Under the pieces are notes generated by a model. That model was not told where the DNA came from and ran no database searches. It saw only the letters and a program-made list of their open reading frames with translations. Shown in pieces: positions 810-13,800 of a stretch of 64,000 nt of DNA; the first letter of the stretch is position 1; every line of letters starts with the position of its first letter. Position numbers and translations under genes: made by a program. The stretch comes from Candidatus Rokuibacteriota bacterium (GTDB taxonomy: Bacteria > Methylomirabilota > Methylomirabilia > Rokubacteriales > CSP1-6): NCBI GenBank assembly GCA_003221695.1, contig QHSX01000040.1, positions 62,001-126,000 of the forward strand, given 5' to 3'.

Positions 810-1637
810 ATGGCCATCGTTGTCATCTCCCATCAGATGGGCGCGGGGGGCCCCGAAATCGGTACGGCGCTCGCGCAGCGGCTCGGGTACCGCTACGTGA
901 ACCAGGAGCTCTTGCTGGACGCGGCGCGCCGCTACGGGCTCGCTGAGGGGAAGCTCTCGCACCTCGAGGAATCCAAACCCACCCTGTTCGAGCGCTTCGA
1001 CACCGAGACGCGCCACCACATCACGGTGCTGCAGACGACGCAGTTCGAGTTCGCCGAGATGGACAACGCCGTCCTGATGCGCGGCGGCGGCCAGTGGCTG
1101 TTGCGGGGTGTGCCGCACGCGCTGCGCGTCCGGCTCGTCGCACCCTTCGAGCACCGCGTGAAGCAGTGGATCAAGCGCACGGCGGAGATGACGGGCGAGA
1201 CGCCGAACCAGCGGGCCGCCGCGGATTTCGTGCGCCGCGACGACGCCGAGAAAGCGGGCCGCATGCGCTACCTCTACGAGGTCGACATCGCGGACCCCCT
1301 GCTGTACGAGCTCATCATCAACACCGAGAAGCTCCGGCACGAGGCCGTCGTGGAGATCCTCGAGCGCCTCGTGCGCCGTCCGGAGATGGCGACCACCGAG
1401 GAGGGGCGGCGGATCGTCGCCTCCCGCGCCCTCGCCTCGCGCGTGCAGGTGGCGCTCGCCACGAACCCCGAGACGCGCCGCTACCGGATCAACGTGGAAG
1501 CCCAGGGGGACGTGGTGACGCTCGAAGGGACCACCGCGCTCGAGCGCGCAGTCGAGGTCGCGCAGAAGGTCCCGGGCGTGCGCGAGGTCCGGACGCAGCA
1601 GGTCGAGATCCCGCCGATCCCGCCCTTCGTCGCCTAG
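810..1637 (+). CDS. cytidylate-kinase-like (AAK6 type) protein with C-terminal BON domain
   Basis: 275 aa. The N-terminal part (about 1-185) resembles the cytidylate kinase-like family (Cytidylate_kin2): a P-loop-like GAGGPEIG at residues 11-18 followed by LAQRLGYRYV. The canonical P-loop Lys-Ser/Thr is absent, as is usual in this family. It has an Arg-rich segment and a long helical region around 130-185. From about 196 to 268 a BON domain is readable (VEAQGDVVTLEGT, then VPGVREVRTQ); such domains normally bind membranes or lipids in periplasmic proteins. No signal peptide is seen. Substrate and reaction cannot be inferred; a nucleotide-binding sensor role is as likely as kinase activity. 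Its TAG stop overlaps the stop of the convergent htrA gene. Confidence 0.8.
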   Translation: MAIVVISHQMGAGGPEIGTALAQRLGYRYVNQELLLDAARRYGLAEGKLSHLEESKPTLFERFDTETRHHITVLQTTQFEFAEMDNAVLMRGGGQWLLRGVPHALRVRLVAPFEHRVKQWIKRTAEMTGETPNQRAAADFVRRDDAEKAGRMRYLYEVDIADPLLYELIINTEKLRHEAVVEILERLVRRPEMATTEEGRRIVASRALASRVQVALATNPETRRYRINVEAQGDVVTLEGTTALERAVEVAQKVPGVREVRTQQVEIPPIPPFVA

Positions 1638-2821
1638 CGCGGTTCTCGGGCCGGGAGGGCGGTGTCGGCGGCGCGGTCGGGCGCCTCCGCGATACGGAGC
1701 TCGAGCGTACGGCGCTCGCGACTCCGTACAATCGCGAGCTTGACGGTTTTCCCCACCTCCGCGTCCGCCGACAGGCGCTGGAGGTGATGGTAGTCCTCGA
1801 CCTCCGTGCCGTCGAACGTGACGATCACGTCGTTCTGGACGAGGCCCGCCGCCGCGGCGGGGCTTCCCGGGTAGACGCGGGCGACCACTGCGCCGCGCGC
1901 GTCCCGCACCCCCAGCGTCTGCGCGAGCTCCGTCGTCAGCGGCTCCATCGCGACGCCGATCCAACCCCGGATGACCTTGCCGCGGTCGATGAGCTGGCTC
2001 GTCACGCGCTTGACCATGTTGGCCGGAATCGCGAAGCCGATACCCTGGCCCGTCGCGACGATCGCGGTGTTGATCCCGATGACCTCGCCGCGCAGGTTCA
2101 CGAGCGGCCCGCCCGAGTTGCCGGGATTGATCGACGCGTCCGTCTGGATGAAGTTCTCGTACGTCGTGATACCGACGTCGGACCGTCCCGTCGCGCTCAC
2201 GACGCCGACCGTCACCGTCTGGTCCAGCCCGAACGGGTTGCCGATCGCGATCGCCCACTCACCGACGCGGAGCTTGTCCGAGTCGCCCAGCGCGGCGACG
2301 GTGAGCGGCGCCGTCGGCTCGAACCGGATGATGGCGAGGTCGGTCTTCGCGTCGGTACCGACGATGCGTCCACGGGATTCCTCCTTCGAGGACAGGCGCA
2401 CCAGGACGCCGTCTGCGCCGCGGACGACGTGCAGGTTCGTCAGCACGTAGCCCCGTTTGTCGATGATGACGCCCGAGCCGAGCCCCGGCTGATGGAACTC
2501 TTCGCGGCGTCCCGGGCCGCGCCCGAAAAACTGGTCGAAAAAATCCTTGAATGCGGGGTCATCAGCGAACGGCCCGAGCGCCGGGGGACGGCGCAACCGG
2601 GCGACCTGGACCGTGCCGATATGGACCACGGCCGGGCGAACGCGCTCGGCCACGCTGACAAAGGCCGACTGCAGGGCCTCGGCCGTGTTGGCGGGTCCCA
2701 GCGGCCCCGACCCGCCCGCTGGAGGGGGGGCCGTCAGGAGCGCATGGAGCCAGAAACCACCGCCAAGGAAGGCGAAAAGGGCGCTGGCCAGGAGAACGGT
2801 GCGGGCGCTCTTGGGAGCCAT
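1634..2821 (-). CDS. htrA: HtrA/DegP-family serine protease with one PDZ domain
   Basis: 395 aa periplasmic quality-control protease. An N-terminal hydrophobic segment (residues 8-30) acts as signal or membrane anchor. The trypsin-like domain has the full catalytic triad: His131 (TNLHVV), Asp161 (KTDLAI) and Ser236 (GNSGGP). A single PDZ domain follows at about 290-380 (GWIGVAMEPL, then AGLVQNDVIVTFDG). One PDZ and an N-terminal anchor match the DegS/HtrA-like layout rather than two-PDZ DegP. It is divergent from the exopolysaccharide operon, with a TTGACA-N17-TAGCAT promoter in the shared intergenic region. Its stop codon overlaps that of the convergent kinase-like gene. Likely role is proteolysis of misfolded envelope proteins or envelope stress control. 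Confidence 0.95.
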   Translation of the reverse strand: MAPKSARTVLLASALFAFLGGGFWLHALLTAPPPAGGSGPLGPANTAEALQSAFVSVAERVRPAVVHIGTVQVARLRRPPALGPFADDPAFKDFFDQFFGRGPGRREEFHQPGLGSGVIIDKRGYVLTNLHVVRGADGVLVRLSSKEESRGRIVGTDAKTDLAIIRFEPTAPLTVAALGDSDKLRVGEWAIAIGNPFGLDQTVTVGVVSATGRSDVGITTYENFIQTDASINPGNSGGPLVNLRGEVIGINTAIVATGQGIGFAIPANMVKRVTSQLIDRGKVIRGWIGVAMEPLTTELAQTLGVRDARGAVVARVYPGSPAAAAGLVQNDVIVTFDGTEVEDYHHLQRLSADAEVGKTVKLAIVRSRERRTLELRIAEAPDRAADTALPAREPR

Positions 2822-2990: not shown

Positions 2991-4532
2991 ATGAACCGGC
3001 ACAATCTTCGCAGGACGCTCTGCGTGGTCCTTGTGGCGTCCCTGCTGGCGCCGAGCTTTGGCTTTGGTCAGCCGCAGTCGGCACCGTCGCCGGGGGTGCC
3101 GTCTCCTGGACGGTCTGTCACTACGCCGACGGCACTGGGGGGCGCGGCGCGAGTCATGCCCGGACCGGAGTACCGGCTCGGTCCCGGCGATGTACTGGAG
3201 GTCCAGATCGCGGGTCGGCTCGACGTCGAGCGCTCACAGGTGTTCGTCGACCCGACGGGTGCGATCAGCTTGCCTCCGCTCGGCTCGATCCTGGTCGGCG
3301 GCCTGACGCTGCTCGAGGCCCAGCGGCGCGTCGCCGCTCGCGCCAGCGGAGTGTTTCGGTTCGCGAACGTCACGCTCGCGGTCGCCCTCCCGCGCACGTT
3401 CGAGGTCACGCTGTCGGGCGAGGTGGAGCGGCCCGGGACGTTTGCGGTGAGCGCTCTGCGGCGGCTGCACGAGGTGATCCTCGACGCGGGCGGTGTCACG
3501 TCCCGCGGCAGCCTTCGACGCGTCCAGGTGACGCGAAAGAGCGGCGTGACCGAGGTGGATCTGCTGAGCTTCGAGCTCGGGGGCGATCTCACCCAGAACC
3601 CGTTCGCCGAGGAGGGCATGCGGATCCACGTCCCGCCCCGGGGCCCCTCCGTCATCCTGACGGGAGCGGTGCGGCGTCCCGGCGAATACGAGATCGGGCC
3701 GACCGGCTCGCTGCGCGCCCTGCTCGAGCTCGTGGGCGGCCTCAGTCAGGCGTCCGCGGGGAGCGAGGCGCGCCTCACGCGCGTCGGCTCGGACGGACGC
3801 AAGGAGACGACCGCGATCGACCTGGGAACCGCGCTGAAGCCGCCCGCAGACGTGCCGCTCGAGCCCGGCGACGCGCTGTTCGTGCCATCGCTCTCCGTGC
3901 TCCAGGACGTCGTCGAACTGCGGGGTGCCTTCAACGGCACGCCGGAGTCGACGAAGACGACCGTCGCGGGCAAGACGACGATCCTGCAGCGCTTCGAGTT
4001 GGCGCAGGGCGACCGCGTGCGCGACATGGTGCTCCGCGCGGGTGGCCCCGCCGCGCACGCCGAGCTCCGGCTGGCGCTGATCGAGCGAGGCGGAGTCACG
4101 GGGCCACGGCAGCGGATCCCGATCGACCTGCAGCGGCTGATCGTGGAGAAGGACGACACGCAGAACATCCTGCTCGAGAACGGCGATGTCCTCACGCTCC
4201 CGATCGTCGAGGACAAGGTGTACGTGATCGGCGAGGTCAAGACTCCGGGCGCGGTCGACTTCCGGCCCGACCTCACGCCCCGAGAGTACGTGGCGCTCGC
4301 CGGCGGGCCGAGTGCTCGCGCCAAGGTCGCGAGCGTCTTCGTGACCTTCCGTAGCGGAAAGAGCTACGGGATGGCGGACGCGCCGCCGCTCGAGCCGGGC
4401 GCGGTCGTGACGGTTCCCGAGGTCGCGGTGAAGTGGTGGCAGGACTACCTCGCGATTACTCAGTCGATCGCGTCGCTGATCCTGGGCATCACCGGCCTCT
4501 TCGTCATTTTCAACGGGCCCATCACGAAATAG
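2991..4532 (+). CDS. polysaccharide export protein, Wza/SLBB family
   Basis: 513 aa outer-membrane or periplasmic exporter for polysaccharide. A signal peptide is visible at residues 1-26 (basic NRHNLRR, then hydrophobic CVVLVASLLA). The poly_export domain spans about 58-132 (YRLGPGDVLEVQIAGR). SLBB-type units follow, each starting with a beta strand ending in V-x-x-PG: about 138-180 (LSGEVERPGTF), 222-270 (LTGAVRRPGEY), 308-365 and 411-450 (VIGEVKTPGAV). A hydrophobic C-terminal segment (about 488-508) could be the outer-membrane helix. An upstream extension in the same frame exists, but ATG 2991 gives the only sensible signal peptide. First gene of the locus, 3 bp before the ATPase gene. 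Confidence 0.93.
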   Translation: MNRHNLRRTLCVVLVASLLAPSFGFGQPQSAPSPGVPSPGRSVTTPTALGGAARVMPGPEYRLGPGDVLEVQIAGRLDVERSQVFVDPTGAISLPPLGSILVGGLTLLEAQRRVAARASGVFRFANVTLAVALPRTFEVTLSGEVERPGTFAVSALRRLHEVILDAGGVTSRGSLRRVQVTRKSGVTEVDLLSFELGGDLTQNPFAEEGMRIHVPPRGPSVILTGAVRRPGEYEIGPTGSLRALLELVGGLSQASAGSEARLTRVGSDGRKETTAIDLGTALKPPADVPLEPGDALFVPSLSVLQDVVELRGAFNGTPESTKTTVAGKTTILQRFELAQGDRVRDMVLRAGGPAAHAELRLALIERGGVTGPRQRIPIDLQRLIVEKDDTQNILLENGDVLTLPIVEDKVYVIGEVKTPGAVDFRPDLTPREYVALAGGPSARAKVASVFVTFRSGKSYGMADAPPLEPGAVVTVPEVAVKWWQDYLAITQSIASLILGITGLFVIFNGPITK

Positions 4533-4535
4533 CCC

Positions 4536-5339
4536 ATGTACGAAGCCTACTGGGAGCTCAGCGAACCGCCGTTCGACAACTCGCCGAACCCGAAGTTTTT
4601 CTACCTGTCGCCCGAGCACGAGGAGGCGCTGGTGCGCCTCGTCTACATGGTCAGCCACCGCAAGGGGTGCGGGATGCTCACCGGCGAGTACGGCTGTGGC
4701 AAGACGACGCTCTCACGCGCGCTCATCCAGCGCCTCGAGGCCGAACGCTACGAGATCGGTCTGCTCACCAATCCGAGCTGGAACGCCGTGGACTTCCTCC
4801 GCGAGGTGCTCTATCAGCTCGGCGTCGAGACGGCGGAGAAGCACAAACCCGAGCTTCTCCATCTCCTGAACGACACCTTCTACCGGAACTACCAGGCCGG
4901 ACGCGACAGCGTGGTGATCGTGGACGAGGCGCAGCTGATCGAGGACGACGCGGTTTTCGAGGAGCTCCGGCTGCTGCTGAACTTCCAGACGGACAACCGG
5001 TTCCTCGTGACGCTCCTGCTCATCGGCTCACCGGAGCTCGCGGTCAAGGTGCGGCGCATGAAGCACCTCGACCAGCGGATCACGCTCCGCTACCACCTCA
5101 ACACCCTCGATTACACGCACACGGCGAACTACATCGCCCACCGGCTGAAGATGGCGGGGCAGACGAAGCAGCTCTTCACCGAGGAAGCGGTCAAGCTCAT
5201 CTTCGACTTCACGCGCGGCACGCCCCGGGAGATCAACAACCTCTGCGACGTGGCGCTCCTCGTCGGGTACTCGAAGCGGGCGAAGGAGGTCGGCGAGAAG
5301 ATCATCGCCGAGGTGATCAAGGACATGGTGGGTGTCTGA
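4536..5339 (+). CDS. ExeA-like AAA ATPase associated with polysaccharide export
   Basis: 267 aa cytoplasmic P-loop ATPase. N-terminal MYEAYWELSEPPFDNSP is typical of ExeA/GspA-type ATPases, including those found beside PEP-CTERM/exosortase exopolysaccharide genes. Walker A is GEYGCGKTT at 50-58 and Walker B VVIVDEAQ with Asp130-Glu131. A sensor-like segment (LLLIGSPEL) and an Arg-rich C-terminal helical region (GTPREINNLCDVAL) complete the AAA fold. It lacks the C-terminal transmembrane and peptidoglycan-binding extension of ExeA proper. Placed between the Wza-like gene and an HD-type protein, it probably energises or regulates assembly of the export machine. No exosortase gene is in the window. 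Confidence 0.9.
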   Translation: MYEAYWELSEPPFDNSPNPKFFYLSPEHEEALVRLVYMVSHRKGCGMLTGEYGCGKTTLSRALIQRLEAERYEIGLLTNPSWNAVDFLREVLYQLGVETAEKHKPELLHLLNDTFYRNYQAGRDSVVIVDEAQLIEDDAVFEELRLLLNFQTDNRFLVTLLLIGSPELAVKVRRMKHLDQRITLRYHLNTLDYTHTANYIAHRLKMAGQTKQLFTEEAVKLIFDFTRGTPREINNLCDVALLVGYSKRAKEVGEKIIAEVIKDMVGV

Positions 5340-5341
5340 CG

Positions 5342-6490
5342 ATGGTTCGCATGAGCGACCTCGTGCGCGGCGCCCCCGCCGAAAAGGCCGCGCCCCCTAA
5401 GACCGCGCCCCCCAAGGAGCCGACGGAGAAGCGGGCCGCCGCTCCGGCGGTGCCGCCGACGCTGCCGCGCACGCGCCTGGCCGAGGGGCCGCTCCAGAGC
5501 GTCGCCGCCCCGCCCCGTCGGGGGCCGGAGCCCGCTCCCGCCCCGGAGACGCCGGCACCGTCGCCCCCACCGCCGCCGGCGCCGACCGCGGCGCCGGCCG
5601 TGAGCGCCGAGGCGCTCTTCGGCGGACTCCTCCGATTCCTGGCGGGCGTGCGTGATCTCGTGATGACGGGGAGCGTCACGTTCCCGTGGGACGGCCTCGA
5701 GCGGCTCATGGGGCACGCGATCGGGTCACTGGAGCGGTCCGGTGAGCTCTTCTGGGTCGCCAACAATCCGGCTGCGCCCGCGGACGTCGACTACCTCGCG
5801 TTCCACCAGGCGCAGGTCGCGGTGCTGTCGATGCGCATCGGCTCCGATGTCGGCTACGATCGCCGACGGCTCGTCGCGCTCGGGATGGCGGGGTGCCTGC
5901 TCGACGTCGGCCTCTGGCAGCTTCCGGAGTCCGTCCTGCGGCGGCTGGACGCGCTCACGTCCGCGGAGCAGGCGCAGTACCGGTCGCACCCCACGCTCTC
6001 GGCCGAGGTCATCCGGCGCTGGAGCCCGCCGAGCGAGGGGATCGTGGAGGCCGTGCTGCAGCACCACGAGCGGGAGCACGCGCAGGGATTTCCGCAGGGG
6101 CTCGCGGGCGCGGCGATCCATCCGGACGCGAAGATCCTCGGCCTCGTCGACACCTACACCGGGCTCACGGTCCCGCCGTCGGCCCGGCCGCGCCTGAGAC
6201 CGCACGAGGCCATCCGCGACATCGTGAAGTCCAAGCACGAGGCGTTCGCGTCGCCACTCATCAAGGCGCTGCTCTCCGAGATCTCCGTGTTCCCGCCCGG
6301 CACGCTCGTGCGGCTCAACACGGGCGAGGTCGGCCGCGTCGTCGCCGTGAACCGCAACCACCCGCTCCGCCCGCGCCTCGAGGTCGTCGCGGACGGCAAA
6401 GGCCACCGGTTCCCGACACCCAAGACCGTCGATCTCTCCGAGGCGCCGTTCATCTACATCACCGGGCCCGTCGCGGAGGGCGCGCGGTGA
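5342..6490 (+). CDS. degenerate HD-GYP-type protein with Pro/Ala-rich N-terminus
   Basis: 382 aa. ATG at 5342 lies 2 bp after the ATPase stop and is chosen by that coupling. Residues 10-88 are a low-complexity Pro/Ala linker. From about 90 to 310 the order of HD-GYP motifs is recognisable: FHQAQVAVLSMRIG (about 154-167), LLDVGLWQLP (186-195), HP (216-217), HHEREHAQGFP (241-251) and DTYTGL. In the key HD pair the His is replaced by Leu187 (Asp188 kept), and GYP reads GFP, so metal-dependent c-di-GMP hydrolysis is doubtful. A C-terminal beta domain (about 315-382) contains VNRNHPLRPRLEVV. More likely a c-di-nucleotide or protein sensor for export than a phosphodiesterase. Confidence 0.82.
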   Translation: MVRMSDLVRGAPAEKAAPPKTAPPKEPTEKRAAAPAVPPTLPRTRLAEGPLQSVAAPPRRGPEPAPAPETPAPSPPPPPAPTAAPAVSAEALFGGLLRFLAGVRDLVMTGSVTFPWDGLERLMGHAIGSLERSGELFWVANNPAAPADVDYLAFHQAQVAVLSMRIGSDVGYDRRRLVALGMAGCLLDVGLWQLPESVLRRLDALTSAEQAQYRSHPTLSAEVIRRWSPPSEGIVEAVLQHHEREHAQGFPQGLAGAAIHPDAKILGLVDTYTGLTVPPSARPRLRPHEAIRDIVKSKHEAFASPLIKALLSEISVFPPGTLVRLNTGEVGRVVAVNRNHPLRPRLEVVADGKGHRFPTPKTVDLSEAPFIYITGPVAEGAR

Positions 6491-6530: not shown

Positions 6531-9500
6531 ATGGCCCAGTACGAGATGAACCTCCGCGACTACTGGATGATCATCCGCCGCCGGCGGCTGATCATCGTCG
6601 CCTCGACGGTGCTCGTGGCGTTGTTCAGCTTCTGGTTCGCCAAGCAGCGGGTCCCGGTCTACCAGGCCACCGCCGCGGTGCGGTTCGAGCAGTCGACCCA
6701 GCTCTCGGGCCTGCTCGTGGAGGTGCTCTCGTACTCGAGCGCGGACAACATCGAGACGCAAGTCACCCTCATCAAGAGCTACCCGATCCTTGAGGAGGTT
6801 GCCAAGCGGCTCAACCGGCTGCCGCCGCAGGCCGCGGCGGGCGGGGCGGTCCGCGAGTCGAAGGCGTACTGGGTGGCGCTGGACGCGATCAGCTCGAAGG
6901 TGAAAGTGACGCGCGTCCCGAACACGAGCATCCTCGAGATCACGGGCACCTCCACGAACTCGCGAGAGGCGCGGGACCTCACGAACGCCGTCGCCGAGGT
7001 CTACCGCGACTACAACCGGCAGCAGCGGAACCTGCGCGTGACGGAAGCGCGCAAGTTCATCGAGACTCAGCTCAAGGACGTCGAGGCGCGCGTCAAACGG
7101 GCCGAGTCCGAGGTGTGGGCCTTCCGCGAAGCCAACCGCATCATCTCGCCCGGCGCCGAGTCGACGGTGCTGCTCTCCCTGTTCACCCAGGTGCGGGGCG
7201 ACATCGAGAAGGCCCGGCAGCAGCGCACCGAACTCGAGCTCGTCCAGGCGCGCCTCGCCCGGACCGATCCGAACGCGTCCGAGCGCGTCTTCATCGACAC
7301 GACGAACCCCGCGATGCAGCGCCTCCAGACGATGTACTCGGAGCTCCTCCTCGAGCGAAACAACCTCGCGCTCGAGGTCACGGAGCGACACCCGCGGCTC
7401 CAGGCGCTCGACGACCGCATGCGCGAGATCAGGGTGGAGATGCGGCGCGAGGTGGCGGCGCAGATCGCGGCGCTCCGGACGCGCGAGGAGATCCTGAACC
7501 GCCAGATGGGCGACCTGCTGCAGAAGAACCGGGAGGTTCCCGCCGTTGAGCTGGCGATGCAACGGCTGCAGCGCGAGGCGAAGAACAACGACGACCTCCT
7601 GGCGCTGCTGAAAGCGAAGCACCAGGAGGCCCTGATCAAAGAGTCGGAGAAGATCGAGGAAGTCTCGATCGTCCGCCCGGCGACGGAGCCCGACGTGCCG
7701 GTCGGAGCCGAGACCCTCAGCACCGTCCTGGTCGGCGCGCTCCTCGGCCTCTCGCTCGGCCTGGTCCTCGCGTTCGTGCAGGAGACGCTCGACACCTCGA
7801 TCGGCACCATCGAGGACGTCGAAGCCTACCTCGAGGTCCCGGTGCTCGGCGTGGTGCCGCACATTGACGCGCACGAGACGGTCCAGCGCCTCCTCGAGCG
7901 CCGCCCCGCGCTCGCCCAGGTGGATCCCGAGGCGCTCCTGAGCCACGCGCTCCTGATCGTGCACTTCGATCCGAAGTCGCCGGTCGCGGAAGCCTACCGG
8001 ACGCTCCGCACGAACATCCAGTTCGCCCGGATGGAGCGCGCGGGGAAGGTCCTGGTCGTCACCAGCCCGACCCTGCAGGAGGGCAAGACGACGACCATCG
8101 TCAACCTCGCCCTCACCCTTGCGCAGAGCGGGCAGCGCACGCTGCTCGTCGGCGGGAACCTGCGTCGGCCGTCCATCCACCGCTTCTTCGGCATCGAGCG
8201 TGAGCCCGGTCTCTCCGACATCCTGGTAGGGAGCACGGCGTGGCGCGACTGCGTCCGCACCGTCGCGGACGTCCTCATGGGGCGCTTCGAGATGGAAGAC
8301 ATCATGGCCGCGCCGGGCCTCGACAACCTCCACATCATCGAGGCGGGGCCCATCCCGGCCAACCCCTCCGAGCTCCTGTCGACGCCCGCGATGACCGCCT
8401 TTCTCCGCGCCGTGCGCGATGAGTACGACATCGTCCTCATCGACACACCACCCGTCCTACCGGTCACCGACTCGGCGATCGTCGCGGCGCAGGCCGACGG
8501 CGTGATCCTGGTCTACCAGGCGGGGAAGGTCGGACGCCTCGTGCTCAAGCGTGCCAAGGTCCATATCGAGAACGTTGGTGGCAAGGTCTGGGGCGTGGTC
8601 CTCAACGACGTCAAGGCGGAGATCGCCGGGTACGCGTACACGCACTACTACACGCACTACTACGGCGAGGAGACCGTCATCGACACTCACAAGGAGCGGC
8701 TCAATCGCGCGGCCGCGTTCTTCCGGCGGCTCCTGGGTCGCGACGCGCCCGGAGAGCCGCGTGGCGGGGCCGTGGCGGGAACCGGCGCATCCGTGGGCGC
8801 CCCGTCCCCCGCCGTCCAGCCGGTCCCGATGCCGCAGGCGACGAGCAAGCGCCGCGCCCTGCTCATCGCCCTGATCGCGGTTCTCGCGGGCGTGATCCTC
8901 GCGGGTGTGGTCGGCTGGCGAGTCGGGTTGCTCCGTGGCCAGCCCCCGCCCAAGGCGCTCCTCCGGGAAAAGCTCGACGCGTCGCCGGTCACGCCGCCCG
9001 CTGCGGCGCTGCCGGTTTCACCGGCGCCCGCGCCCATGCCGGCGCCCGCCCGCGAGCCCGCGCCGTCCCCGGAGGCCGCGGCACCGCCGCCTCCCGCGGT
9101 GAGCCCGGCGGACACGACGAGCGCCCCGGAGAGCTCGCCCGACAAGGCCGGCGCGGAACCGAGCGGCGCCCGCGTGCCGGAGCGCGCGCCCGAGCCCGTC
9201 ACGCCCGCGGCACGCCCGTCCGCCGTCGCCGCGCGTGAGGCGGCGCCGACGGCGACCGGGACGCGCTTCGCCGTCGAGCTCGGTCCCTTCGTCATGCCGG
9301 CGGAGGCGGAGCGGGTCGAGCGTCAGCTGAACCAGGCGGGGTACCAGACGACGCGCCTCCGCCAGCAGACCGACGCCGCGGTCTACGCCGTTCTCGTCGA
9401 GAGGATACCGACGGCGCGTGAGGCGCAGACGCTCGTTGCGAACCTCCGCGACGATGGGTTCGACAACGTGGCGGTGCTCGGCGAGACCGAGCCGCTGACG

Positions 9501-9716
9501 GTCCGGGTCGGCACACCGCTGCCGCTCCGCGGGGCGGTGCAGGTGGCCGAGAGGCTCCGCGCCGCCGGTCATCAAGTGCGGGTGTCGGCCCAGCCGGGCG
9601 AGGCCGTGACGTTCGTGATCCGCCACGGCAACTTCACCACGGCGGAGGTGGCGGAGGCCAAAAGCCAGGAACTCCTCCGCCTGGGTCTGAGCGGTCAAGT
9701 TGTCCGCGTCCGGTAG
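6531..9716 (+). CDS. Wzz / bacterial tyrosine-kinase fusion with C-terminal SPOR-like region
   Basis: 1061 aa inner-membrane polysaccharide co-polymerase. TM1 is at 20-36, with a periplasmic Wzz domain and long coiled coil at 165-380 and TM2 at 396-416. A cytoplasmic CpsD/Wzc-type kinase domain (about 480-700) has Walker A EGKTTT (517-522) and Walker B VLIDTPP (Asp638). The Walker A' site, normally LLIDADLR, reads LLVGGNLR (538-545) and lacks the acidic residues. A tyrosine cluster YAYTHYYTHYYGE (701-713) would be the autophosphorylation site. Unusually, a third TM (774-797) follows, then a Pro/Ala linker and two SPOR-like repeats (912-981 and about 993-1061) that would sit in the periplasm and could bind denuded peptidoglycan. 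Controls chain length and export with the Wza-like protein. Confidence 0.9.
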   Translation: MAQYEMNLRDYWMIIRRRRLIIVASTVLVALFSFWFAKQRVPVYQATAAVRFEQSTQLSGLLVEVLSYSSADNIETQVTLIKSYPILEEVAKRLNRLPPQAAAGGAVRESKAYWVALDAISSKVKVTRVPNTSILEITGTSTNSREARDLTNAVAEVYRDYNRQQRNLRVTEARKFIETQLKDVEARVKRAESEVWAFREANRIISPGAESTVLLSLFTQVRGDIEKARQQRTELELVQARLARTDPNASERVFIDTTNPAMQRLQTMYSELLLERNNLALEVTERHPRLQALDDRMREIRVEMRREVAAQIAALRTREEILNRQMGDLLQKNREVPAVELAMQRLQREAKNNDDLLALLKAKHQEALIKESEKIEEVSIVRPATEPDVPVGAETLSTVLVGALLGLSLGLVLAFVQETLDTSIGTIEDVEAYLEVPVLGVVPHIDAHETVQRLLERRPALAQVDPEALLSHALLIVHFDPKSPVAEAYRTLRTNIQFARMERAGKVLVVTSPTLQEGKTTTIVNLALTLAQSGQRTLLVGGNLRRPSIHRFFGIEREPGLSDILVGSTAWRDCVRTVADVLMGRFEMEDIMAAPGLDNLHIIEAGPIPANPSELLSTPAMTAFLRAVRDEYDIVLIDTPPVLPVTDSAIVAAQADGVILVYQAGKVGRLVLKRAKVHIENVGGKVWGVVLNDVKAEIAGYAYTHYYTHYYGEETVIDTHKERLNRAAAFFRRLLGRDAPGEPRGGAVAGTGASVGAPSPAVQPVPMPQATSKRRALLIALIAVLAGVILAGVVGWRVGLLRGQPPPKALLREKLDASPVTPPAAALPVSPAPAPMPAPAREPAPSPEAAAPPPPAVSPADTTSAPESSPDKAGAEPSGARVPERAPEPVTPAARPSAVAAREAAPTATGTRFAVELGPFVMPAEAERVERQLNQAGYQTTRLRQQTDAAVYAVLVERIPTAREAQTLVANLRDDGFDNVAVLGETEPLTVRVGTPLPLRGAVQVAERLRAAGHQVRVSAQPGEAVTFVIRHGNFTTAEVAEAKSQELLRLGLSGQVVRVR

Positions 9717-10323: not shown

Positions 10324-11709
10324 ATGCTCGAGTCCAGCTTTCCGCAAATCGGCTTCGCGCTCGTCCTCGGCTTCGCCGTCTTCATCATCGTCTTCATCAG
10401 GACCGAGGCGGCGATCGCCCTCGTCCTGCTGTCCATGATGCTCTCCCCCGAGTTCTCGCTGGGCGGGTCCGGCCAGCTCGCCGAAAAGCGCGAGGTGGTC
10501 ATCCGCAGCGAAGACCTCCTGCTGATGCTCATCGCCTTCAGCTGGCTGGCGAAGACCGCGGTGAACAAGGAGCTTGGGCTGATTTTGCGCACGGCCCTCA
10601 ACCGGCCGATCCTCGCGTATGTCGTGACCACCTCTCTCGCGACGCTCATCGGGTTCGCCACCGGCACGGTCCGGACGGCGGCGGGGTTCTTTTACGTGCT
10701 CAAGTACGTCGAATACTTCTTTGTCTTCTTCATGGTGGTCAACAACGTACGCGATCGCGAGCAGGCCTGGCGGCTGGTGACGGTCGCCTTCGTGACCGTC
10801 GCGGTCGTGAGCCTCGTCGGGATCGCACAGATCCCCTCGGGCGAGCGGGTGTCCGCCCCCTTCGAGGGCGAGACGGGAGAGCCGAACACCCTCGGCGGGT
10901 ATCTCCTTCTCATGATGGGTCTCGCTGCGGGCGTCGCGTTCGAAACGACGCGCATCCGCACCCGTGCGCTGTGCCTCGGGCTCGCCGTGCTCATGCTGGT
11001 GCCGTTCGTGTTCACCCTGTCCCGGTCGTCCTATCTCGGCTTGATCCCGGTGGTCGCCACGCTCTTCCTCCTCTCGCGCCGCCGGAAGATACTGCTCCCC
11101 CTGCTGATCCTGGTGGTGGTGACCTCGCCCCTGCTCGTCGTGTTCGCCCCGGCGGTCGTGCAGAAGCGTGTCGCCGAGACCTTCCGCCCCCAGGCGAACC
11201 AGCCGCGCGTGAGCGTCGGTCGAGTGGGATTCGATCCGTCCACATCCGAGCGGCTGATCGGATACCGGGGCGCGGCGGAGAAGTGGCTGGAGCGGCCGAT
11301 CCTGGGTCACGGCGTGACGGGAGGATTCTACCTGGACGCCCAGTACCCCCGGACGCTCATGGAGACGGGCATCCTCGGGTTCGCGGCGTTCGGCTGGCTG
11401 GTCTGGTCGATCCTCAAGCGAAGCCTGCTGGCCTTCGAGAGGGCCGCCCACGCCGAGGACCGGGGCCTCGCCCGGGGGTTCATCGCCGGGACGGTGGGGC
11501 TCATGTTCCATGCGCTGGGCTCGAATACCTTCATCATCGTCCGGATCATGGAGCCCTTCTGGTTTTTCGTTGGCATCATGATGCTCCTGACGAGCTTCGA
11601 GGGCGCGACACGCGCGCCTGAGGCGGCGCGGGGCCGCCGGGTCGAACTCCTCGCGGGGCCGGCGCCCCGCCTGGCGGGCTCTCCACCATGGCAGCGCAGG
11701 GCGCTGTAG
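10324..11709 (+). CDS. O-antigen ligase / Wzy-like polymerase family membrane protein
   Basis: 461 aa polytopic inner-membrane protein with roughly ten hydrophobic helices, beginning FALVLGFAVFIIVFI. The long periplasmic loop (about residues 275-345) contains the HG region (PILGHGVTGGFYLD) typical of the Wzy_C/O-antigen ligase family. Earlier, EPNTLGGYLLLMM is another family hallmark. Such proteins polymerise undecaprenyl-linked repeat units (Wzy) or ligate polymer to lipid A core (WaaL); sequence alone does not separate these. Next to an ABC exporter, ligation would be logical; next to a Wzz-kinase, polymerisation would be. The 3' end overlaps the permease gene by 22 bp. Confidence 0.85.
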   Translation: MLESSFPQIGFALVLGFAVFIIVFIRTEAAIALVLLSMMLSPEFSLGGSGQLAEKREVVIRSEDLLLMLIAFSWLAKTAVNKELGLILRTALNRPILAYVVTTSLATLIGFATGTVRTAAGFFYVLKYVEYFFVFFMVVNNVRDREQAWRLVTVAFVTVAVVSLVGIAQIPSGERVSAPFEGETGEPNTLGGYLLLMMGLAAGVAFETTRIRTRALCLGLAVLMLVPFVFTLSRSSYLGLIPVVATLFLLSRRRKILLPLLILVVVTSPLLVVFAPAVVQKRVAETFRPQANQPRVSVGRVGFDPSTSERLIGYRGAAEKWLERPILGHGVTGGFYLDAQYPRTLMETGILGFAAFGWLVWSILKRSLLAFERAAHAEDRGLARGFIAGTVGLMFHALGSNTFIIVRIMEPFWFFVGIMMLLTSFEGATRAPEAARGRRVELLAGPAPRLAGSPPWQRRAL

Positions 11710-12548
11710 GAGGCGGGGCGCACCTGCCCGAGCTCGTCATCGAGGGCACGCGGAGCCCGACGACGCGCGCGGCCCTCGCCGAGTTGTGGCTCCATCGCGG
11801 CCTGGTCCTCGCGTTCGCGATCCGCGACGTCAAGGTCAAGTACAAGCAGGCGATCCTGGGCGTCGCGTGGGCTGTCGTTCAGCCCCTCGGGCTGCTCGTG
11901 TTGTTCACGCTCCTGGTCGCGCGCGCCGTGACGATCCGGGAGACGGACGTGCCCTACCCCGCGTTTGCCCTCTCCGCGCTGATCCCGTGGCTCTTCCTGC
12001 AAAACGCCGTGGTCGCGGGCACCGGCGCGTTGTTGGCGGACAGCGCGCTCGTCAGGAAGATCTACTTCCCGCGCGAGGCGCCAATCCTCGGCGCGGTGAT
12101 GGCGACGGCCATCGAGTTCTGGATCGGCGTCGGGCTCTACCTCGCGCTCGCGCCGTTCGTCGGGGCCCGTCTGGGGCCGACGGCCATTCTCGTCGTGCCG
12201 CTCTTCGTCCTGTGTGCGCTTCTCGCCGCCGGCGTGAGCGTCGCGCTGGGCGCGCTCAACGTGTACTACCGTGACGTACGCTACGTATTGCCCTTCGCCG
12301 TCCAACTGTGGATGTTCGCGAGCCCCGTGGTCTATCCCCTGTCCACCGTTCCGCCCAGGTGGCAGGTGCTGTACGTGACGCTCAACCCTGCCGCCGGCCT
12401 GCTCGACGCTTTTGGGCGCTCGCTCGCCTCCGGCATGCCGCCCGAGCCGATGCTGCTCGGGTTGAGCACCGTGACGACCGTCGCCGTCGGCTGGATCGGT
12501 TATCGGCTCTTCAAGTGGCTGGAGCCGGCCTTTGCGGACGTGATCTGA
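11688..12548 (+). CDS. wzm: ABC-2 type polysaccharide exporter, permease subunit (Wzm-like)
   Basis: 286 aa with six predicted membrane helices and the ABC2_membrane fold. The N-terminal amphipathic segment AIRDVKVKYKQAILGVAWAV is the usual start of polysaccharide/polyol-phosphate exporters. VYYRDVRYVLPFAVQLWMF and FASPVVYPL, late in the protein, are also characteristic. It pairs with the Wzt-like ATPase 4 bp downstream to move lipid-linked polysaccharide from the cytoplasmic to the periplasmic leaflet. The N-terminus (about 20 residues) overlaps the 3' end of the upstream ligase gene, suggesting coupled translation. Confidence 0.93.
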   Translation: MAAQGAVGGGAHLPELVIEGTRSPTTRAALAELWLHRGLVLAFAIRDVKVKYKQAILGVAWAVVQPLGLLVLFTLLVARAVTIRETDVPYPAFALSALIPWLFLQNAVVAGTGALLADSALVRKIYFPREAPILGAVMATAIEFWIGVGLYLALAPFVGARLGPTAILVVPLFVLCALLAAGVSVALGALNVYYRDVRYVLPFAVQLWMFASPVVYPLSTVPPRWQVLYVTLNPAAGLLDAFGRSLASGMPPEPMLLGLSTVTTVAVGWIGYRLFKWLEPAFADVI

Positions 12549-12552
12549 GCGC

Positions 12553-13800
12553 ATGTCTATCGCCGTCCGATTCGAGGAAGTCTCCAAGGAGTATCGCCCG
12601 AGCCGGGCGCGCTATGCCTCGGTCCGCACCGAGCTCTCGGCGCTCCTGCGCTGGCTCGTGCGCCGCCGACGCCCGAGCGGCGGCCCCCTCGAGCGCCGGC
12701 GGGCGCTCGACCGCCTGTCCTTCGAGGTGCAGGCCGGGGAGGCGTTCGCGATCATCGGCCCGAATGGCGCTGGGAAGACCACAGCGCTCAAGCTCATGGC
12801 GAGGATCTCGCTCCCGAGCGCCGGCCGGATCCGGCTCTGTGGCCGGGTCGGCGCCCTGATCGAAGTCGGCGCCGGCATCCACCCGGAGCTGACCGGGCGC
12901 GAGAACATCTGGCTCTACGGGCGCTTCGTCGGCATGACGCGAGCCGCCCTCGCCCAGCGATTCGACGAAATTGTCGACTTCTGCGAGCTTGCCTACGTGC
13001 TCGACGAGCCCGTCAAGACGTACTCGACCGGCATGCAGCTCCGGCTCGGCTTCGCGGTCGCCAGTCACGTGGACCCTGACATCCTCGTGGTCGACGAGGC
13101 CCTGGCCGTGGGCGACGCCGCGTTCCAGGCGAAGTGCAGCGAGCGGATGGCGCACCTGCTCCGGCTGGGTCGCACGCTGGTTCTCGTCTCCCACAACCTC
13201 TCCGCGGTGGAGGCGCTGTGCGCGCGAGGCCTCCTGCTGATCGAGGGACGCGCCCGGTCACTCGGGCCCGTCCACCAGGTCGTCCGTGACTACATCGACT
13301 GGGTCGATGCGCAGCACCACTCGGCCGCTCGGCCGGCGGGCGCCCTGCTCCGGGGCGGCGGGCTCGTCCTGACCCGGCTCACGGCCCACGCGCTCGACGG
13401 TGACGAGCGGTACGTTTTCCGACCGGGCGAGGGGATCGAGGTGCGGCTCACCGTTCAGGCCGAGACGGCGATCCGGAGCCCGTGGTTCTCCCTCGGCGTC
13501 AGCGACGGACGGCCTGGGGCGCTCATCATGTGCTCGATGCTCGAGCGCGCGGAGGCCTTCGACCTCGCCCCCGGGGAGCACCAGCTCCTGTGTCGCCTGC
13601 CGGCGCTGCCGCTCGCGCCGCGCGCGTACGAGCTCTGGCTCTCGGTGCGCGACGCGTCCGGCGCCGTCGACATCCTCGACTGGTCCTGTGTCGGATCGAT
13701 CCGCATCGTCGACCCGTCGCCGCCCAGCGGTCCCGGAGCCCTGTCGGCGCCCTGGATGTATGGGCCCGTGCGCGTACCCTTCGAGTGGTCCAAGGGATGA
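12553..13800 (+). CDS. wzt: polysaccharide ABC transporter ATP-binding subunit with Wzt C-terminal domain
   Basis: 415 aa. The nucleotide-binding domain has Walker A GPNGAGKTT (69-77), signature YSTGMQLRL (157-165), Walker B ILVVDEALA (177-185) and an H-loop SHN near 213. About residues 265-405 form a beta-rich C-terminal domain of Wzt_C type, which in O9a-like systems recognises the modified non-reducing end of the O-polysaccharide before export. Its presence suggests chain termination by a cap such as methyl; methyltransferase genes follow directly. The TGA stop overlaps the next ATG. Confidence 0.95.
   Translation: MSIAVRFEEVSKEYRPSRARYASVRTELSALLRWLVRRRRPSGGPLERRRALDRLSFEVQAGEAFAIIGPNGAGKTTALKLMARISLPSAGRIRLCGRVGALIEVGAGIHPELTGRENIWLYGRFVGMTRAALAQRFDEIVDFCELAYVLDEPVKTYSTGMQLRLGFAVASHVDPDILVVDEALAVGDAAFQAKCSERMAHLLRLGRTLVLVSHNLSAVEALCARGLLLIEGRARSLGPVHQVVRDYIDWVDAQHHSAARPAGALLRGGGLVLTRLTAHALDGDERYVFRPGEGIEVRLTVQAETAIRSPWFSLGVSDGRPGALIMCSMLERAEAFDLAPGEHQLLCRLPALPLAPRAYELWLSVRDASGAVDILDWSCVGSIRIVDPSPPSGPGALSAPWMYGPVRVPFEWSKG

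Follow-up and report, generated by a model that had tools for sequence, protein, structure and literature searches.

For the polysaccharide co-polymerase Wzc, the dephosphorylated octamer has been proposed to be the export-competent form, the ring being taken apart as phosphorylation progresses (PMC8285477, PMC11986026). The tyrosine tail of one subunit touches the active site of its neighbour, and a kinase-dead protein is present as a stable octamer (PMC8285477). Studies on EcpK indicated that BY pseudokinases can also support export, and a mechanism free of tyrosine phosphorylation was proposed (PMC12004946). The SPOR domain of RlpA contacts denuded glycan by one Gln and a patch of three Arg, and the residues that matter in FtsN are Q251, S254, W283, R285 and I313 (PMC6895207).

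The window analysed here, a stretch of 64,000 nucleotides from a Candidatus Rokuibacteriota contig, encodes a protein, termed Wzc-SPOR in the following, in which a co-polymerase, a BY-kinase-like domain and two SPOR repeats are combined in one chain. It is a PCP-2a variant without the acidic Walker A′ site of catalytic BY-kinases, yet it is not a pseudokinase of the EcpK type. A limited literature search, in which only work on MapZ surfaced, found no published description of a Wzc-SPOR protein with a GxN site. One lineage has stripped exactly the A′ acids and kept the remaining active site and the tyrosines; it offers a natural experiment on whether a PCP-2a protein needs cycles of tyrosine phosphorylation or nucleotide binding and assembly alone.

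Architecture of Wzc-SPOR and its locus

Wzc-SPOR is a Wzc-type (PCP-2a) polysaccharide co-polymerase with Wzz and GNVR domains, two transmembrane helices flanking a large periplasmic region and a Foldseek match to Wzc (Table 1). Pfam recognizes Wzz (5–93), GNVR (345–418), AAA_31 (518–665) and SPOR (910–982) domains, each above its gathering score, and gives no match to SPOR repeat 2. The nearest solved structures by sequence are Wzc octamers and the kinase domains of CapAB, BceF, VpsO and Etk. Compared with the CapA1B1-ADP-Mg structure by Foldseek, the kinase region reaches a TM-score of 0.92 on the target, the kinase fold being intact, and the octamer-interface motif EX2RX2R (E487, R490, R493) is conserved in the BY-kinase-like domain. 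Three segments of the chain are hydrophobic (18–39, 389–420 and 772–802). In a whole-chain AlphaFold2 prediction, run with 25 relatives, TM1, TM2 and TM3 (772–797) are helical, residues 816–909 are disordered and the segments 912–983 and 989–1060 are folded. With the kinase domain in the cytoplasm, the topology would place the tail after TM3 in the periplasm. The Tyr cluster is located internally rather than at a free C-terminus: about 60 residues lead from it to TM3, and the periplasmic tail comes after that helix. The combination of Wzz, BY-kinase, third helix and two SPOR-like repeats, which an earlier note had read from the sequence, was confirmed by Pfam domain search, AlphaFold2 and Foldseek, and its non-acidic Walker A′ motif LLVGGNLR recurs as GxN or NxN in 40 distinct sequences. 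A SPOR-like fold is indeed predicted for 912–1061, divided into the two repeats given above. The third helix, which the same note set at 774–797, is real because the segment 772–802 is hydrophobic, although its AlphaFold2 span is 772–797.

The SPOR fusion and the A′ loss are fixed family-wide and are not an oddity of one genome. More than 25 relatives from Candidatus Rokuibacteriota MAGs have the identical full-length architecture, and a survey of related genomes bore out the same fusion throughout the family, with a match to the tail in 43 of 60 genomes of the order. Tail copies of at least 51% identity belong to frames of about 1000 residues or longer, except for those cut at contig ends and one split frame (L052). 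A single-genome oddity is excluded by the relatives bearing the same fused tail, a sequencing or assembly error by the agreement of 40 distinct sequences from independent MAGs on GxN/NxN, and pseudogene decay by open frames in nearly all copies, invariant motifs and a conserved operon. The Rokubacterial fusion was also found at high identity in a record labelled Chloroflexi (L048), which is probably a mis-binned contig.

Nearly all family members share the gene order CMK > < HtrA, SLBB > ExeA > HD > Wzc-SPOR > Wzy_C ligase, often accompanied by a KdsC-type gene. The SLBB/Poly_export and Wzy_C genes and the conserved synteny characterize it as an export operon, in which no phosphatase gene, Wzb-type included, was seen. 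The cytidylate-kinase-like protein at window positions 810–1637 carries a C-terminal BON domain and lies beside HtrA across the order. Directly downstream of the operon, a Wzm/Wzt-type pair of ABC-2 permease and ATPase (window positions 11688–13800) has an equivalent at this position only in L060, so that the downstream part of the polymer pathway differs between loci.

Table 1. Coordinates of the features in the window and, where a locus handle precedes the colon, at related loci
Feature	Coordinates	Strand	Evidence
HtrA-type protease, marks locus	1634..2821	-	synteny
SLBB/Poly_export outer-membrane polysaccharide export protein	2991..4532	+	operon partner
ExeA/XrtA-associated-type AAA ATPase	4536..5339	+	Pfam AAA_22; TIGR03015 below its cut-off
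HD-GYP-type protein, catalytic HD lost, LDVGL for HDxGK	5342..6490	+	Pfam HD_5 9.8e-25, alignment
Wzz – BY-kinase-like – TM3 – tandem SPOR protein, 1061 aa	6531..9716	+	ORF, ATG start
Wzz (chain-length determinant) domain aa 5-93 and TM1 (18-39)	6543..6809	+	Pfam PF02706 9.7e-9; hydrophobicity
GNVR domain aa 345-418 and TM2	7563..7784	+	Pfam PF13807; hydrophobic 389-420
BY-kinase-like domain aa 480-694	7968..8612	+	Foldseek; invariant columns
Walker A S512-PTLQEGKTT, intact	8064..8093	+	alignment, K519 and T520 40/40
Walker A′ LLVGGNLRRP, G541 and N543 replace both acids	8142..8171	+	alignments, tree
Walker B YDIVLIDTPP	8424..8453	+	alignment, D638 40/40
Tyr cluster Y701-Y711 (YAYTHYYTHYY), internal	8631..8663	+	translation, alignment
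Third transmembrane helix, aa 774-797	8850..8921	+	AlphaFold2 helix 772-797; hydrophobicity 3.03
Periplasmic linker rich in Pro and Ala (28 each among 104 residues), mostly disordered (predicted)	8946..9257	+	AlphaFold2, composition
SPOR repeat 1, aa 912-983, E916 for canonical Gln	9264..9479	+	Pfam PF05036 3.1e-9; fold
SPOR repeat 2, aa 989-1060, basic face R/Q992, R1017, R1031	9495..9710	+	fold, conservation
Wzy_C / O-antigen ligase-type membrane protein	10324..11709	+	Pfam PF04932, synteny
Sister Wzc kinase, Walker A′ EAD, third TM helix, single SPOR	L128:8-2719	-	
Sister Wzc kinase, Walker A′ EAD, third TM helix, single SPOR	L130:6415-9297	-	
Sister Wzc kinase, Walker A′ EAD, third TM helix	L131:5123-7720	-	
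Stand-alone TM-SPOR gene beside cytidylate-kinase-like and HtrA genes	L062:6814-7672	+	
Stand-alone TM-SPOR gene beside cytidylate-kinase-like and HtrA genes	L063:1469-2093	-	
Stand-alone TM-SPOR gene beside cytidylate-kinase-like and HtrA genes	L064:1488-2034	-	

The Walker A′ site and the HD partner

Wzc-SPOR contains the Walker A (GKT) and Walker B (IDTPP) signatures of BY-kinases, and reads G541-x-N543-x-R545 in place of the Walker A′ motif DxDxR. Solved and neighbouring kinases have D-x-D at this site, as do the genome's three further BY-kinases (L002 to L004) and most others of the order and class, one related group having E-A-D. In the alignment of distinct readable kinase domains of the Rokubacterial clade, the site is GxN in 39 of 40 and NxN in one (L015); N543, K519, T520 and D638 are found in all 40 and G541 in 39, and Y703, Y707, Y710 and Y711 are invariant wherever present in the 40 distinct members. 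The near-absolute conservation of G541 and N543 compares with a mean of 0.88 over the kinase-domain columns. D-A-N was encountered only in two distant Methylomirabilis-type proteins, the other BY-kinases of the genome and order being [DE]xD; these two (L093 and L097) are BY-kinase-like proteins with an open frame of 264 residues and represent another partial loss. In a kinase tree computed without the Walker A′ columns, the GxN proteins form a single branch (SH-aLRT 100) which adjoins an ExD/DxD group of Rokubacteriales, a Methylomirabilis-type family, Schekmanbacteria and Deltaproteobacteria. The simplest reading of these sequences is that the A′ change arose once on the stem of the clade and was then retained.

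The ExD sisters of Rokubacteriales (L128, L130) resemble Wzc-SPOR in the Wzz-kinase family, operon type, TM3 and the presence of SPOR, but keep EAD, and their one SPOR domain has the canonical Gln, Trp and Arg. Their acidic A′ site and canonical SPOR domain make them a matched control. Their SPOR tails show that the tail does not require the A′ loss, as would be expected if Wzc-SPOR were an ordinary PCP-2a protein in which a neutral A′ drift was fixed in the ancestor and the tail is a generic anchor unlinked to kinase function. Neutral drift is, however, hard to combine with the near-absolute G541 and N543 or with the corresponding loss in the HD protein described below, and we consider this explanation very improbable.

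The HD protein encoded upstream of Wzc-SPOR has replaced the His of its HD site by Leu, Ile, Phe or Met in all aligned sequences of the window clade. Its counterpart in the ExD sisters reads ADVG, CDVG or ADIG, and that of a distant relative with a DAD kinase (L056) retains HDLGK and GYP. As judged from the alignments, catalytic residues have disappeared in the window clade from two regulatory enzymes of one operon, the kinase and the HD protein, and an enzymatic control may have been replaced by a phosphorylation-free, ligand-sensing one. For Wzc-SPOR itself, the natural prediction would be nucleotide binding without efficient phosphotransfer. The suspicion that the kinase is weak or differently regulated fits the clade-wide loss of the A′ acids and the degenerate HD partner, but inactivity would go beyond the data, Walker A, Walker B and the Tyr cluster all being maintained.

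The kinase could also be active in a different way, in view of its conserved tyrosines and of the near-invariant acidic residues E587, E604 and D693, which are specific to the GxN clade and lacking in the sister group. In such a rewired site, Walker A and D638 would hold Mg-ATP, E587, E604 and D693 would be candidates for replacing the A′ acids, the Tyr cluster would still be phosphorylated and the SPOR tail would merely anchor the ring. The invariance of the Tyr cluster, K519, T520 and D638, the three clade-specific acids and the sister group's tolerance of Glu for Asp at the first position of A′ speak for this possibility, which we nevertheless rate as rather unlikely, both A′ acids being gone and the sole variant, NxN, being non-acidic too. 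Alternatively, Wzc-SPOR might be a pseudokinase whose tyrosines are phosphorylated in trans by one of the three further BY-kinases of the genome, all DxD, and dephosphorylated by a low-molecular-weight phosphatase. The three loci (L002 to L004), two LMWPc-family matches in the genome and the conserved Tyr cluster are in line with such a scheme. On the other hand, these kinases belong to separate operons and have Wzz partners of their own, the Wzc-SPOR operon shows no phosphatase, and EcpK and HfsB apparently function without such help (PMC12004946), so that a phosphorylation in trans appears improbable.

The SPOR tail and its origin

Predicted alone, the tail of Wzc-SPOR forms two successive β-α-β-β-α-β units (AlphaFold2 pLDDT 90) and matches the SPOR domain of CwlC (pdb-code: 1x60) with a Foldseek probability of 1.00 and a TM-score of 0.71 on the target. 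An RNP-like SPOR fold is thus indicated by Pfam for repeat 1, by AlphaFold2 for both repeats and by the match to 1x60. The two repeats differ at the positions of the glycan-contacting residues. In repeat 1, the Gln is replaced by Glu (E916) in 31 of 31 sequences, with Pro at the position of S254 and Ala or Gly at that of R285. In repeat 2, the Gln position is occupied by Arg (21) or Gln (10), R1017 and R1031 are present in 31 of 31, and R1031 would, by register, fall at the position of R311 in RlpA. Of the two, repeat 2 is, by these residues, the more likely to bind glycan, and repeat 1 may have some other role. Tethering to division or remodelling sites, as considered in the earlier note, is made plausible by two periplasmic SPOR folds and the basic face of repeat 2, but a canonical binding of denuded glycan does not follow from them, since the Gln and the Arg285 equivalent are gone from repeat 1 and the basic face is confined to repeat 2.

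Stand-alone TM-SPOR genes were found between CMK and HtrA in two further families belonging to the order (L063, L064); in the window's own family, one immediately follows HtrA without an intervening Wzc (L062 of genome G005). The window tail is 40% identical to the L062 protein over 248 residues (E 1e-40), 34% to that of L063 and 33% to that of L064. Its similarity to the tails of the ExD sister kinases is near noise (blastp E 0.16–0.5; 0.005 for L131). The fused tail is therefore most likely derived from the neighbouring stand-alone SPOR gene by gene fusion, and the ExD sister group probably gained its own SPOR domain independently; a common origin of both kinds of tail is unsupported, their similarity beyond the fold being about noise. 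The tail tree does not separate whether L062 represents the pre-fusion state or the leftover of a deletion, and L063 and L064, which lie outside the window's family, are better candidates for the former. The repeated joining of SPOR to this co-polymerase points to a benefit that it draws from wall anchoring.

Mechanistic proposal and relation to known systems

From the sequences and predicted folds we infer a loss of kinase activity and a binding to peptidoglycan. The best explanation, to which we give about an even chance, is a kinase-impaired, nucleotide-binding PCP-2a ring which is periplasmically anchored via TM3 and two SPOR domains. In this scenario, the kinase domain would have turned into a nucleotide-binding, phosphotransfer-impaired structural domain. 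Tyrosine transfer to the tail of the neighbouring subunit would be weak or absent without the A′ acids, and the autophosphorylation-driven dismantling of the ring would accordingly not take place. Instead, the conserved Tyr segment might dock into the active site of the neighbour as a nucleotide-dependent latch. TM3 would keep the Tyr segment close to the membrane at either end and add periplasmic anchors, so that up to 16 SPOR domains per octamer could attach the ring in the periplasm, probably to peptidoglycan or another acidic glycan via repeat 2. In place of a kinase/phosphatase cycle, control over assembly would then lie with the ExeA-type ATPase, the non-catalytic HD protein and the state of the wall. 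The fixation of both changes suggests that polymer export is controlled by wall anchoring and not by self-phosphorylation.

Several points count against this best explanation. Capsule production by Wzc requires cycling and not a locked octamer (PMC8285477), and known BY pseudokinases such as EcpK have dispensed with the Tyr cluster and all Walker motifs (PMC12004946). Full conservation of the Tyr cluster would be odd if it were never phosphorylated, and E587, E604 and D693 could be stand-ins for the A′ acids. The loss of the glycan-contacting Gln and Arg in repeat 1 argues against the wall-anchoring part. A further step would regard the kinase and the HD-GYP phosphodiesterase both as non-catalytic sensors, the export ring being gated by nucleotide and SPOR–glycan contact independently of phosphorylation. 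We consider such gating possible but doubtful; if true, it would couple capsule export physically to wall remodelling.

Wzc of Escherichia coli is the best PDB match of Wzc-SPOR by sequence and fold and shares with it the Wzz domain, two transmembrane helices, the cytoplasmic P-loop kinase, the Tyr-rich segment and EX2RX2R (PMC8285477, PMC11986026). Wzc-SPOR differs by GxN for DxD, the internal Tyr cluster and the added TM3, linker and two SPOR domains. EcpK and HfsB (with EpsV and HfsA, respectively) likewise have a BY-kinase fold without catalytic residues and are proposed to support a PCP-2 protein without tyrosine phosphorylation (PMC12004946). However, EcpK is a separate protein without the three Walker motifs, Tyr tail and SPOR (PMC12004946), whereas Wzc-SPOR has lost only A′, retains its Tyr cluster and comprises all parts in one chain. 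FtsN, CwlC and RlpA share the SPOR fold, and FtsN also the order of transmembrane helix, disordered linker and periplasmic SPOR domain (PMC6895207), but the SPOR domains of Wzc-SPOR are arranged in tandem and carried by a co-polymerase. In Streptococcus pneumoniae, the co-polymerase/kinase pair CpsC/CpsD puts capsule synthesis at the division site, a logic like that proposed for Wzc-SPOR; unlike the latter, it is a Gram-positive split system, localized by CpsC, with an active kinase and no SPOR domain (PMC4574921). Tandem SPOR domains in the same chain would offer a physical route to site capsule synthesis at the wall, which the pneumococcus achieves otherwise.
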